Shown here: positions 1 to 3,791 of the stretch, piece after piece
How the letters are laid out: the number at the start of each line of letters is the position of its first letter
How positions within the stretch are numbered: position 1 is the stretch's first letter
Origin: Bizionia argentinensis JUB59
GTDB taxonomy: Bacteria; Bacteroidota; Bacteroidia; Flavobacteriales; Flavobacteriaceae
Length of the DNA stretch: 64,000 nucleotides
Assembly (NCBI RefSeq): GCF_000224335.1
Contig: NZ_AFXZ01000009.1
Coordinates: 1 to 64,000, forward strand
Direction of reading: 5' to 3'
Notes under the pieces: model-generated
What the model was told of the DNA's origin: nothing
Databases searched by the model: none
What the model saw: only the letters and a program-made list of their open reading frames with translations
Made by a program: the position numbers and the translations under genes

Positions 1-117
1 TTCACTCCAGTAAATTCATACCCCTCTTCAACTAAAGAAGGGAGCCAGATAGGCTTTTTCTATATGTTTTGGAATATTATAAATTAAGTTTCATTTTTAA
101 TTTACTTGAACTTGATA

Positions 118-227
118 AAGAATCAGGTTAGTTGCTATTTATGAAAACAAGCAAAAACAGCTCCTCCCTTCAGTTGAAGGGAGGTGGCTAGACTGACGTT
201 AGGAAGGCTAGACGGAGGGTTTGTTTT
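118..227. repeat. Dispersed palindromic repeat, copy A (left part)
   Basis: This is the left half of a dispersed repeat that recurs at about 840-970, 1895-2115 and 2165-2405. It holds an inverted repeat at 163-184 (CCTCCCTTCA, two-base spacer, TGAAGGGAGG), followed by a GGCTAGACTGACG-type block. Bases 1-60 look like the right end of a further unit (CACTCCAGTAAATTCATACC). The unit is broken after 227 by the DUF559 gene and resumes at 644. Copies C and D show the uninterrupted arrangement. Confidence 0.8.
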
Positions 228-643
228 CTTATTCTAAATTAAAATGTTCCTGTATTTCTTTTATAACAGATGGAAGTAAATCAAAAACCATTTTATTTTC
301 AAACCGGATAACTTTATAGCCCTTACTTTCTAAATAAATAGTGCGCTTATTATCATATGCTTGAGCTTCGGGATTATTATGAACTTCCCCATCCAGTTCA
401 ATTATTAACTTTTCAGAAGCACAGTAAAAGTCTACTATATAATTTCCGATACTATGTTGTTTTGTAAAGCGCTTATTATCCAATTGCCTGGCTTTTAATT
501 GTGTCCATAAAAAGGCTTCCGCAGGTGTCAAGTTTTTTCGCAGTTTTTTTCTGTAACTGTGCAATTCTATTTTACTATGTATGTTTTGTTTGGACAAGTA
601 TTAAAAATACAAATTATTTTGATGTTAGAATTTTTTAAATAGA
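228..643 (-). mobile_element. Putative insertion carrying the DUF559 gene
   Basis: Bases 228-643 interrupt repeat copy A. The 10-base sequence GGTTTGTTTT lies on both sides (218-227 and 644-653), as expected of a target-site duplication. In copies C and D the same place reads GGATTGTTTTAAACC with no gene. The insert is about 416 bases, nearly all of it the DUF559 reading frame. I see no transposase and no terminal inverted repeats, so the mechanism is unknown. The insertion is inferred from comparison of copies within this window. Confidence 0.55.
229..597 (-). CDS. DUF559 (Vsr-like) endonuclease domain protein
   Basis: This 122-residue protein matches the DUF559 family, a PD-(D/E)XK nuclease fold related to Vsr mismatch endonucleases. 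The core is at residues 15-115. D56 (in VDFYC) and E67/D69 (in IIELDG) are the likely metal ligands, and the conserved strand GYKVIRF is at about 93-99. The length is normal for stand-alone members. The start is TTG at 597. An in-frame stop lies two codons upstream, so no earlier start is possible. The gene fills an insertion inside a dispersed repeat. Family assignment is firm, but the substrate and any role in moving the repeat are unknown. Confidence 0.85.
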   Translation of the reverse strand: MSKQNIHSKIELHSYRKKLRKNLTPAEAFLWTQLKARQLDNKRFTKQHSIGNYIVDFYCASEKLIIELDGEVHNNPEAQAYDNKRTIYLESKGYKVIRFENKMVFDLLPSVIKEIQEHFNLE

Positions 644-760
644 GGTTTGTTTTAAAACCAAGACATTATTGTTTACAAACTCCCCCTTCTTTATTTCCGT
701 TGTCACTCCAGTAAATTCATACCCCTCTTCAACTGAAGCGGGGAGCCAGATAGGCCTTTT
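644..760. repeat. Dispersed repeat, copy A (right part)
   Basis: This resumes the unit interrupted at 227: GGTTTGTTTTAAAACC, then an ACAAACTCCCCCTTC block, TCACTCCAGTAAATTC, and an imperfect hairpin CCCCTCTTCAACTGAAGCGGGG at about 721-742. It aligns closely with 2006-2110 and 2303-2405. Confidence 0.75.
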
Positions 761-839
761 CTATATGTTTTTGGAATAGTATTAGAACATAATCTTTTTT
801 AATAATTTCAATTTGGGAAGATTTCCAGTTAGTTTCTAG

Positions 840-970
840 ATTTGAAAACAAGCAAAAATAGCTCCGCCCTTCATTTGAAGGGCGATTAAGCATTAAAAAA
901 TAGTCCAGTGGATTATTTTAGCGCAGAGGCGAGCTGGCGCGTTGGAATCAAGGCTAGAAGGCGGGTTTTT
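840..970. repeat. Dispersed repeat, copy B (degenerate)
   Basis: This copy contains GAAAACAAGCAAAAATAGCTC, a GCCCTTCATTTGAAGGGC hairpin and an AATAGTCCAGTGGATTATT imperfect palindrome. It is closest to copy D at 2165-2300. It is followed at about 966-1000 by a C-rich/G-rich inverted pair (CCCCTAAATCCCCAAAGGGG). No coding sequence was recognised between 760 and 1180. Confidence 0.65.
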
Positions 971-1181
971 TTTATCCCCTAAATCCCCAAAGGGGACTTC
1001 TTACTGTTACGAAGTTGGTTTTCTGTTTAGTGGCAGACAGAGCTGTGGGGTTGGGTTCTAAAATTCTCGGCGCCGCAGGTATATCCTACCTTTAAATACT
1101 TTGTACTTCAATTATACTCTAATTTATATTGCGAAATAACGTTATATTAAATCACTGGTAACAAGTCAAACTAGTTTTTTG

Positions 1182-1189
1182 TATCTTTG
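1182..1189 (+). promoter_or_regulatory. Candidate -7 promoter element for the toxin-antitoxin pair
   Basis: TATCTTTG fits the Bacteroidetes -7 consensus TAnnTTTG and lies 19 bases before the antitoxin start codon. No good TTG is seen at the expected -33 distance, so this is a moderate call. Confidence 0.45.
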
Positions 1190-1208
1190 ATATTAAGATT
1201 TATATACT

Positions 1209-1427
1209 ATGGATATTCAGACAACAAAAATAGAATTGGTCAAAACGATTTTAGCGATTGAGAATATTGAATTTATTCAAAAAGTAGCAGATTTTATAAG
1301 CAAGGAAAAAATTGATTTCTGGAATGAATTAAGTGCTTCCGAACAAAAAGAAATAAAAAAAGGAATTGATGACCTAAATCAAGGAAAAAGAATCTCTTAT
1401 GATTCCTTTTTAAGGAAAATTTCCTAA
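1209..1427 (+). CDS. Putative type II antitoxin
   Basis: This is a small acidic and lysine-rich protein of 72 residues. Its C-terminal half (FWNELSASEQKEIKKGIDDL) resembles the short antitoxins that precede RelE/ParE toxins in Bacteroidetes. Such proteins usually have an N-terminal helix that dimerises and a C-terminal tail that wraps the toxin. The stop codon shares its last base with the start of the downstream gene, which indicates translational coupling. The call rests mainly on size, composition and the toxin-like neighbour. A DNA-binding motif was not confidently identified. Confidence 0.65.
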   Translation: MDIQTTKIELVKTILAIENIEFIQKVADFISKEKIDFWNELSASEQKEIKKGIDDLNQGKRISYDSFLRKIS

Positions 1428-1735
1428 TGATTGTTTTTTTATCCGAGCTAGCAGAAACTAAACTTCTCAAATTATCCGAATATCTTTTAGAAAATTGGAA
1501 TATAAAAACACGAGATAGGTTTATAGAGAAGCTTTCAGAAAAAATCAGACAAATTTCTATTCAACCAGAAAGTTGTCCGCAATCAACTGAATTTCCGGGT
1601 TTGTATGCATGTGTTGTAGCAAAGCAAATAACCTTATATTATCGAATTTCAATTGAATTACAAGAAATTGAGATAATTACCGTATTTGACACGAGGCAAA
1701 ATCCTGATAAAGTAAAAAAGGATATTGAATATTAA
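1427..1735 (+). CDS. RelE/ParE-family toxin
   Basis: The 102-residue protein has the ParE/RelE layout: two N-terminal helices (residues about 5-45, including LSEYLLENWNIKTRDRF), then a beta sheet ending in YYRI and ITVFDTRQNP. The final strand VFDTRQNP is typical of ParE-like toxins that act on gyrase or the ribosome; which of these cannot be told here. It overlaps the upstream antitoxin by one base and is probably cotranscribed with it. The pair lies among dispersed repeats, a common setting for addiction modules. Confidence 0.8.
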   Translation: MIVFLSELAETKLLKLSEYLLENWNIKTRDRFIEKLSEKIRQISIQPESCPQSTEFPGLYACVVAKQITLYYRISIELQEIEIITVFDTRQNPDKVKKDIEY

Positions 1736-1894
1736 ACACCAATAATGTATTTTATTAAAGGAACCTTGAAAAGATATTCGCTTGTCACTAAAGCACCTCC
1801 ATACACACCCATTATAATTCTTCCAATTTGGTGATTTTGAAATGTTCGTGGAGTAAAGCGCTTTAATTTTCTTCGCTTAAGCTATAAAAGTTTG

Positions 1895-2115
1895 AACTTG
1901 GGAAGAGTTCCAGTTAATTTCTAGATTTAAAAACAATAACAATTTAGCTCCTCCCTTCAGCTGAAGGGAGGTGGCTAGACTGACGCTAGGAAGGCTAGAC
2001 GGAGGGATTGTTTTAAACCAAAACATTATTACTTACAAACTCCCCCCTTCTTTATTTCCGTTATCACTTCAGTAAATTCATACCCCTCTTCAACTAAAGA
2101 AGGGAGGCAGAGTAG
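1895..2115. repeat. Dispersed repeat, copy C (uninterrupted)
   Basis: This is a full-length, uninterrupted copy. It has a perfect 22-base palindrome at 1950-1971 (CCTCCCTTCAGCTGAAGGGAGG), then the GGCTAGACTGACG block, GGATTGTTTTAAACC at about 2002-2018, the ACAAACTCCCCCCTTC block and CCCCTCTTCAACTAAAGAAGGG. It serves as the empty-site reference for copy A. Bases 1736-1894 hold nothing I recognise. Confidence 0.8.
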
Positions 2116-2164
2116 TAAATTACGCTTTATTTTTAATTTATTTGAACTTGATAAGTAGTTAGGT

Positions 2165-2405
2165 TAGTAGCTATTTATGAAAACAAGCAAAAACAGCTCC
2201 GCCCTTCAGCTGAAGGGCGATCAAGCGTTAAAAAATAGTCCAGTGGACTATTTTAGCGCAAAGGCGAGCTGGCGCGTTGGAATCAAGGCAAAACGGAGGG
2301 ATTGTTTTAAACCAAAGTATTATTACTTACAAACTCCCCCTTCTTTATTTCCGTTGTCACTCCAGTAAATTCATACCCCTCTTCAACTGAAGCGGGGAGT
2401 CAGAG
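2165..2405. repeat. Dispersed repeat, copy D (uninterrupted)
   Basis: This copy carries a perfect 18-base palindrome GCCCTTCAGCTGAAGGGC at 2201-2218 and a second perfect one at 2232-2254 (AAAATAGTCCA, G, TGGACTATTTT). The GGATTGTTTTAAACC junction and the same right end as copies A and C follow. A 63-codon open frame runs through it, but it is made only of repeat sequence. Confidence 0.8.
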
Positions 2406-2433
2406 AAGTTTTAAATATTCGGGATGCACTTAT

Positions 2434-2468
2434 ATTCTTCATTAGTAATTCTTCATTATTAACACCTC
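2434..2468. repeat. Short heptamer-phased repeat upstream of wzm
   Basis: The sequence runs in 7-base units attcttc, attagta, attcttc, attatta, acacctc and ends just before the possible TTG start of wzm at 2470. It is the most degenerate of the heptamer arrays in this window. Confidence 0.5.
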
Positions 2469-2469
2469 A

Positions 2470-3372
2470 TTGTTTATATTAGCCCTATTGAAAAATCCTA
2501 CTATATTGCATACAAAAGAAGATGACACGTGGTTATATACCATTTCTTCCAAACGAAAATTAATCGACTTTAATTTTGCTGAAATTTGGCGTTATCGCGA
2601 TTTACTTTTTTTGTTTGTGAAGCGCGATGTGGTTACGGTTTATAAACAAACCATTTTAGGGCCGCTTTGGTACATTATCCAGCCATTATTTACCTCCGTT
2701 ATTTTTACCTTGATTTTTAATAATCTCGGACAAATTTCCACCAATGGGGTGCCGCCATTTTTATTTAACTTGGCTGGTATCACAGCATGGAATTATTTTA
2801 AGGAATGCCTTACAGGAACATCCAGTACGTTTACTGCCAACCAGAGTATTTTTGGTAAAGTCTATTTTCCAAGAGTTATTGTACCCATGTCCATTACTAT
2901 TTCCAACTTATTAAAGTTTGGAATTCAACTGGGAATCTTCATAGGTTTTTATGTATATTATGCGTTTCAAGGCAGGACGTTAGGCTTTAATAGCCATGTG
3001 TTTTTATTACCTATATATATTATCATGATGGCTTTATTGGGCTTGGGATTGGGTATGATTATCTCCTCTATGACCACTAAATATCGCGACTTAACCATAT
3101 TAGTTGGTTTTGGCGTACAATTATTAATGTATGTATCGGCCGTTCCGTATCCCGTAAGTGAGGCAAAGGCCAAATTTCCAGAAGCTGTAGCACTTATTGT
3201 GGAATATAATCCGCTGACACAAATTATTGAAGGATTTAGATATATGCTTTTAAACACAGGAACGTTTAGCTGGTTTGGTTTTCTGTATACATTAGCGATT
3301 AGTATGGTGCTGTTTTTAATTGGTTTGGTTATATTTAACAAAACGGAGAAATCGTTTATTGATACGGTATAG
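2470..3372 (+). CDS. wzm: Polysaccharide ABC exporter, permease (Wzm type)
   Basis: This is an ABC-2 type permease that would form the transmembrane half of a glycan exporter with the ATPase encoded at 3912. The cytoplasmic N-terminus has the family signature YRDLLFLFVKRDVVTVYKQT followed by LGPLWYIIQP. About six hydrophobic segments follow between residues 65 and 295. Starts are uncertain: TTG at 2470 gives 300 residues and TTG at 2506 gives 288. Homologues usually begin a few residues before the WLYTISS motif, which favours the later one. It is the first gene of the large polysaccharide locus. Confidence 0.9.
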   Translation: MFILALLKNPTILHTKEDDTWLYTISSKRKLIDFNFAEIWRYRDLLFLFVKRDVVTVYKQTILGPLWYIIQPLFTSVIFTLIFNNLGQISTNGVPPFLFNLAGITAWNYFKECLTGTSSTFTANQSIFGKVYFPRVIVPMSITISNLLKFGIQLGIFIGFYVYYAFQGRTLGFNSHVFLLPIYIIMMALLGLGLGMIISSMTTKYRDLTILVGFGVQLLMYVSAVPYPVSEAKAKFPEAVALIVEYNPLTQIIEGFRYMLLNTGTFSWFGFLYTLAISMVLFLIGLVIFNKTEKSFIDTV

Positions 3373-3375
3373 GCA

Positions 3376-3431
3376 GTTGTCCGTTATGAGTTATCCGTTA
3401 ACAGACAATCGAAAACCGAAAACCGAAAATT
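3376..3431. repeat. Heptamer tandem array between wzm and the four-helix gene
   Basis: Eight 7-base units run in perfect phase and end exactly at the next start codon: gttgtcc, gttatga, gttatcc, gttaaca, gacaatc, gaaaacc, gaaaacc, gaaaatt. The first four are of GTT type and the rest of AAC type, roughly reverse complements in character. They fill almost all of the intergenic space. Confidence 0.8.
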
Positions 3432-3791
3432 ATGAAATCATTTAGAGATTTAGACGTTTATAATTTAGCATGCGATTATGCGTTAGAAGTTCATCATATC
3501 TCTTTAAAATTACCGAAGTTTGAATTATACGAGCAAGGAAGTCAAGTAAGAAGGTCATCCAAAAGTGTTAAAGATAATATAGTTGAAGGATATGGCAGAC
3601 GCCGATTTAAAATGGATTTTATAAAATTTTTAGTCTACGCGCATGCTTCTTTATTAGAATGTCTATCGCAGTTAGAAATGATTCAAAAAATATATCCAGA
3701 ATTGGAAGTAGATCATTTATCGGCTAAATATGATGTTTTAGGAGCTAAATTGTTCAAGTTTATTATTTACGTAGAAAAAGAATGGAAATAA
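3432..3791 (+). CDS. Four-helix bundle protein (23S rRNA IVS / Avd-like family)
   Basis: This 119-residue protein belongs to the four-helix bundle family found in 23S rRNA intervening sequences and related to the Avd accessory protein of diversity-generating retroelements. It shows the family layout: an N-terminal FRDLDVYNLACDYA helix, the helix-2 motif VRRSSKSVKDNIVEGYGRR at about residues 38-56, then FLVYAHASLLECLSQL. Homologues form positively charged pentamers thought to bind nucleic acid. No reverse transcriptase or rRNA gene is nearby. The gene separates wzm from wzt and has heptamer arrays on both sides, so it looks like an inserted cassette. Its role here is unknown. Confidence 0.85.
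   Translation: MKSFRDLDVYNLACDYALEVHHISLKLPKFELYEQGSQVRRSSKSVKDNIVEGYGRRRFKMDFIKFLVYAHASLLECLSQLEMIQKIYPELEVDHLSAKYDVLGAKLFKFIIYVEKEWK

Follow-up and report, generated by a model that had tools for sequence, protein, structure and literature searches.

A candidate minimal mobile element in Bizionia argentinensis: a lone Vsr-fold nuclease gene bounded by palindromic G+C-rich units

REPtrons, which combine a TnpA_REP/RAYT enzyme with REP sequences, share with the locus considered here a single nuclease gene, cognate palindromes, gene-less palindromes elsewhere and a pairing of types, as far as the available sections of the source describe them (PMC8266576). The EDxHD/Vsr free-standing homing endonuclease genes, i.e. 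the family of Dassa 2009, include I-Bth0305I (PMC12350094, available sections). MITEs and the Rickettsia palindromic elements are likewise short palindromic units with inverted ends that are inserted in frame into protein genes; they differ, according to the excerpts of the source at hand, in being non-autonomous and nuclease-free, whereas some copies of the units described below carry one gene (PMC10969869). VsrA of Caulobacter is a DUF559 protein for which an SOS response was reported in cells without a methyltransferase; in contrast to the present case, an association with repeats is not mentioned in the accessible part of that paper (PMC12907096).

Here we describe a DUF559 gene at the beginning of a window of 64,000 nucleotides (the whole stretch of DNA that was analysed) from Bizionia argentinensis JUB59 (genome G000). 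On balance we read the feature as a single copy of a minimal mobile element, i.e. a lone Vsr-fold nuclease gene bounded by palindromic G+C-rich units. The locus bears on the question of what moves short G+C-rich palindromes in RAYT-less bacteria. No earlier description linking DUF559 to repeats was found in the literature searched, which for the most part did not include subscription papers.

Repeat copies and nuclease gene in the window

The window starts at base 1 of its contig, which falls inside a repeat copy. One comparison gives this copy as 2-70; in another, positions 2-76 are a partial copy with 93% identity to 703-780. The first 2.4 kb hold four copies of a repeat made from G+C-rich hairpins, all given here on the forward strand. 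Copy A is split by a gene of 122 aa at 229-597 on the reverse strand, which has a TTG start in the list of open reading frames. The left half of this copy (159-227) has the hairpin CCTCCCTTCAGTTGAAGGGAGG (166-181), then GGCTAGAC..GACGGAGGGTTTG, and is 96% identical to the stretch 1946-2014 of copy C; the right half (644-750) runs from CAAACTCCCCC to the hairpin-like ACCCCTCTTCAACTGAAGCGGGGAGC, and the stretch 637-750 has 89% identity with 2291-2404 and 75% with 1998-2111. An inverted repeat (160-185 and 721-746, 85% identity) surrounds the gene in the manner of MITE-type terminal inverted repeats. Copy B (795-974) is divergent, with 83% identity to 2130-2309 and the hairpin CCCTTCATTTGAAGGG at 867-882. 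Copies C (1946-2111) and D (2199-2404) are gene-less and were recognised by identity to the other copies, D by a hairpin match as well. When at most one mismatch is allowed, the hairpin CCCTTCANNTGAAGGG has five sites, four of these in 166-2217, against 0.01 expected. The single-strand fold of copy C has a z of -2.28, and equal stability was reached in 4 of 200 shuffles. A search of 1-3600 for known RNA families gave two matches, each under its own gathering score.

Several smaller features lie in the same region. A palindrome, AAAATAGTCCAGTGGACTATTTT, is found at 897-919 in copy B and at 2232-2254 in copy D, and a relative of it adjoins the element of G003. Between repeat copies, 1209-1735 contains two small genes, a 72-aa ORF and a member of the ParE_toxin family (PF05016). 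Farther on, a gene for a 23S_rRNA_IVP four-helix bundle (PF05635, 3432-3791) lies between the ORF of an ABC-2 transporter and the ABC-type ORF that comes next; short simple repeats adjoin it on either side, so that it is seemingly another small gene in repeats.

The earlier note had described a segment of 416 bases, nearly all of it DUF559 gene, that splits copy A between two identical 10-mers, with uninterrupted sequence in copies C and D, and this description stands. Exact matches to the 10-mer GGTTTGTTTT stand at 218-227 and at 644-653 of the forward strand, separated by the 416 bases 228-643; the window has four copies of it against 0.68 expected, a number reached by 1 of 100 shuffles. The gene-free GGATTGTTTTAAACC is found at 2005-2019 in copy C and at 2299-2313 in copy D. 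Two other statements did not survive. The repeat had been called dispersed; a search of G000 gave five matches, four of them in 2-2404 of the window and one of 26 bp on another contig, i.e. its clear copies all lie in a single locus of 2.4 kb. GGTTTGTTTT had also been proposed as a target duplication that other DUF559 junctions should keep. In the listed junctions of loci having a flank repeat in common with the window, the gene does sit at the repeat edge that it occupies in the window (in G001 and G003, where it is a near kin of the window gene, and in Gelidibacter gilvus), but the 10-mer is missing on the other side. The same-genus junctions thus argue against it as a universal target duplication, and no conserved target duplication was found.

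The 122-aa protein is a DUF559 nuclease (PF04480, with Vsr fold, PD-(D/E)XK; E 5.2e-34 and 116.8 bits against a curated cut-off of 20.6 in a profile search), and a second DUF559 match was not found in G000. Compared with its nearest kin it is under purifying selection, e.g. dN 0.123 and dS 1.365 against G001. Its conserved acidic residues are D56, E67 and D69 in alignment numbering. The predicted structure (pLDDT 91.6) matches NGO0050, I-Bth0305I and Vsr by structure comparison, i.e. DUF559 has the same fold as Vsr. For I-Bth0305I the Foldseek E is 1.2e-4 and the structural alignment has Z 11.4 and rmsd 2.9 with 94 aligned; this enzyme was found by sequence too (profile E 6.5e-4), so that the window nuclease is kin to the EDxHD/Vsr homing endonucleases in both catalytic-domain fold and sequence. 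It does not have the HuH/Y1 transposase fold of the REPtrons. Since the enzyme class differs, the DUF559 element is not a REPtron member, despite the like layout.

Palindromic flanks of DUF559 genes

Matches to PF04480 were found in 72 of the 149 genomes of the window's family. Flanks were surveyed in 59 genes, i.e. 55 picked ones (E <1e-20, open frame <220 aa, plus the fused case L083), three from the same genus and the window gene; weaker and fragmentary matches are left out, as is one gene of the G078 tandem copy (L060, two genes ~1.4 kb apart with equal scores). Direct repeats link both 600-bp flanks in 45 of the 59 genes against 23 of 537 control windows from the same regions, and inverted repeats do so in 18 against 2. 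In a second, named set over several phyla the direct and inverted repeats are found in 33 and 19 of 69 loci, with controls at 3/211 and 0/211; here 11 of 80 loci were skipped (six for short flanks, five for long ORFs), and five loci duplicate survey loci. Hairpins with a stem of at least 8 and a G+C content of at least 60% are present in 134 of 236 windows adjoining the gene, in 21 of 231 at 300 bp and in 10 of 228 at 600 bp.

Similar layouts occur in cyanobacteria, alphaproteobacteria and other phyla. Plasmid loci with hairpins beside the gene come from Picosynechococcus, Pseudanabaena, Sphingomonas, Azospirillum and Sinorhizobium, the Sphingomonas DUF559 gene lying between two transhydrogenase subunit genes. 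At L048, L066 and L092 the gene is flanked by two complete units. Azospirillum argentinense (L188) has ~1.2 kb of extra sequence relative to A. brasilense beside palindromes next to its DUF559 gene. Two candidate cases were set aside: a clean empty site beside the Sinorhizobium gene, where the deletion in S. meliloti Ak57 extends into the gene, and a unit splitting a PglX gene in Synechocystis (L183), which is not claimed because the upstream ORF has no Pfam match.

Five loci of Pontibacter carry the gene inside inverted repeats of 27-61 bp, and the arms of these repeats are themselves hairpins; terminal inverted repeats of the MITE type are at their clearest here. Hairpins at both unit ends would suit a REPtron-like transposition, in which a nuclease of PD-(D/E)XK-type fold acts on single-strand end hairpins and directly mobilises units with and without the gene, in the way proposed for TnpA_REP/IS200-type enzymes; so would a coevolution of enzyme and palindrome of the kind reported for TnpA_REP (PMC8266576, in the excerpts at hand). 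Nevertheless, the fold neighbours of the nuclease are homing and repair nucleases, and we consider such transposition unlikely. No strand-transfer enzyme of this class is known to act without partner proteins, which also counts against it.

The flanks vary together with the nuclease. In a set of 123 loci (five duplicates, long-ORF cases, five proteins <100 aa and L083 removed), common flank sequence was seen beside the gene in 601 of 7503 locus pairs, in 55 at 300 bp and in 27-50 farther out. Sharing was found in 18 of 2889 pairs at 30-40% nuclease identity, in 56 of 80 at 70-80% and in all 14 pairs above 80%; none of 2000 permutations reached the observed value. That flank sharing keeps step with nuclease identity shows that gene and repeats travel together; alone it does not speak for an action of one on the other, and covariation would equally result if gene and repeats were inherited jointly as cargo. 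We hold with considerable confidence that repeat and gene are a single mobile unit.

The units might be moved by an IS200/RAYT enzyme or by host recombination, DUF559 being a Vsr-like repair gene that is carried along. In favour of this, Y1 transposase genes are present in 10 of the 16 genomes examined, among them G000, and Caulobacter VsrA was interpreted as a mismatch-repair endonuclease (PMC12907096, accessible part). However, no Y1_Tnp (RAYT-type Y1 transposase) match was found in the other six of these 16 genomes, five of which have DUF559 units, so that RAYT is disfavoured as a general mover. Moreover, the association spans distant nuclease clades and several phyla, which arbitrary cargo would not explain, and we regard a mere passenger role of DUF559 as improbable.

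DUF559 genes are, as in REPtrons, bordered by cognate palindromes that also occur gene-less. The palindromes are not genome-wide in G000; in other genomes, e.g. G038, a hairpin type is dispersed, with 13 sites over 8 contigs. In the window's family an exact hairpin pattern has 43 sites in 15 of 149 genomes, 9 of the 43 being <1 kb from a DUF559 gene; the pattern was picked after inspecting G038 and G012, and its count is therefore circular for these two genomes. This scarcity of gene-less units is a further point against REPtron-like transposition. At least two sites occur in six genomes only, all among the 51 with a DUF559 match <1e-20 (hypergeometric 0.0013). In G098, G100 and G106 no DUF559 match was found, though exact hairpin sites are present. 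A second pattern has 14 sites in seven genomes, six of them <1 kb from a DUF559 gene; these include a second-family hairpin, CCCCTAAATCCCCAAAGGGGACTT, at 976-999 of the window (forward strand), the sole exact-pattern match in G000, and the proportion of sites near DUF559 genes is 4/5 in G032 and 1/2 in G150.

Occupied and uninterrupted places

DUF559 is present in five of the six genomes of the window's genus that were searched. The elements of G001 and G003 are 88% identical, the remainder of the compared 12-kb regions having in common one 424-bp stretch at 66%; to judge from these alignments, the two elements occupy different places. In the window an ABC-2 transporter gene follows downstream of the element, and the same holds for G003. 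Upstream of the matching gene no element was seen in G002 (396 bp visible), G004 and G005, and G001 gave no match. G004 carries another DUF559 clade within another palindromic repeat family; upstream of its ABC-2 gene (L192) there is a different repeat array around a GTCATTGCGAGG-type palindrome.

Occupied and empty alleles of one place are seen in leuS. A 464-bp insert with hairpin ends is found in G001 and G005, and the gene is uninterrupted in G000, G002, G003 and G004. The inserts of G001 and G005 differ by one base over ~320 bp, whereas identity in the 1.4 kb upstream is 87%; this contrast suggests that the tract was exchanged laterally. Such a combination of both alleles with lateral transfer was seen for the leuS unit, as distinct from the window's own copy. 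The leuS translation of G000 (L201) runs into stops shortly past the compared region, apparently because of a frameshift that may be an error of assembly. The presence and absence at orthologous places and the exchanged leuS tract resemble, together with the kinship in fold and sequence, the EDxHD/Vsr homing genes; the DUF559 units differ from these in that no intron or intein was seen and in that they have palindromic boundaries, of a kind that is found gene-less as well.

In the genus of G012 the gap between a ligase and a helicase gene was recovered in 10 of 12 genomes, with the order unit-gene-unit in nine and a single unit in G157. Two of the nine gap genes have an internal stop. The DUF559 gene tracks the neighbouring helicase (rho 0.78), from which it follows that the site is mainly vertical and that G157 more probably represents a loss; the single unit was probably left by recombination between units. 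Flanking units of one genome have a likeness of 0.72, as against 0.65-0.67 for units of different genomes, which makes the case for their concerted evolution weak. Covariation within the unit hairpin is weak as well, with 5 of 31 predicted pairs two-sided, in one helix, and a term of -0.18.

The congruence with the helicase in this one genus is what would be expected if the architecture were static, i.e. if a resident gene were surrounded by hairpins with a terminator or regulator function and the flanks were alike by common descent only. This we disfavour as very improbable in view of the uninterrupted leuS alleles inside one genus, the gene-less units, the 88%-identical copies at non-orthologous places, the exchanged leuS tract and the units inserted in frame into coding genes.

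The latter are recurrent. By Pfam, DUF559 lies inside LeuRS (L011) and MetH (L032); it is N-terminal in the proteins with HemD (L020) and with a PALP enzyme (L083), and C-terminal in the one with HisD (L019); more cases in LeuRS, MetH and HemD were spotted by eye from conserved stretches. The edges of many of these in-frame domains are translated palindromes. In the tree the domains from leuS, metH and hisD group together in a supported clade, and those from hemD in another. That units of one clade occupy the unrelated leuS and metH, and the end of hisD too, is in keeping with REPtron-like transposition; in contrast to REPtrons, the DUF559 gene is patchy and at varying places, with hairpin-bounded units in frame within genes.

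The wider claims of the earlier note can be judged from these comparisons. The nesting of the nuclease gene in palindromic repeats extends far beyond the window, as seen in both locus surveys and in the hairpin counts; gene-less copies and uninterrupted sites do exist, in leuS and in the ligase-helicase gap; and no transposase gene belongs to the DUF559 unit. The note had also taken DUF559 genes without the repeat as evidence to the contrary. Such genes occur in so far as 14 of 59 and 36 of 69 have no flank direct repeat at the threshold, but all except 9 of the 123 loci have flank sequence in common with at least one further DUF559 locus.

Movement of the units

At the level of sequence, the structure of the unit, its presence and absence and one lateral exchange are established. 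We infer from the same comparisons that the nuclease would drive the movement, by homing-type break repair or by hairpin transposition, and that it would mobilise the repeats. We think it rather probable that movement is started by the nuclease; that it proceeds through break repair, not single-strand transposition, we put at close to, if somewhat under, an even chance.

In this preferred model of homing, the nuclease would cut or nick the unit DNA, either as duplex or as extruded hairpin. The break would be repaired off a gene-bearing copy, the repeats serving as homology arms, and repair would copy the gene from one unit copy to another and from strain to strain, like a free-standing homing endonuclease gene. 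Gene-less units could come from recombination between flanking units or from internal deletion, and they may move in trans. Applied to the window, the model would make A the gene-bearing copy and the other three, B, C and D, its gene-less relatives. The vertical site in the genus of G012, the only slightly greater likeness of flanking units within than between genomes, the DUF559-free genomes with hairpins, the single-locus repeat in G000 and the failure to find a conserved target duplication were counted against this reading.

A broader proposal, which we offer tentatively and which we rate as less likely than its alternatives taken together, is that these elements are a hitherto undescribed REPtron-like class of many phyla. 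Its Vsr-fold nuclease would recognise the hairpins at its own unit and spread gene-bearing and gene-less units, also in frame through leuS and metH, both of them essential genes. If the nuclease is indeed cognate to the palindromes, the DUF559 domains in LeuRS, MetH, HemD, HisD and PALP-fold proteins would be hairpin-bounded units, not functional fusions. With a cognate nuclease, whose sole name so far is that of a domain of unknown function, the question of how palindromes spread becomes testable, and the package of gene plus repeat hints at an overlooked route by which small repeats may spread.
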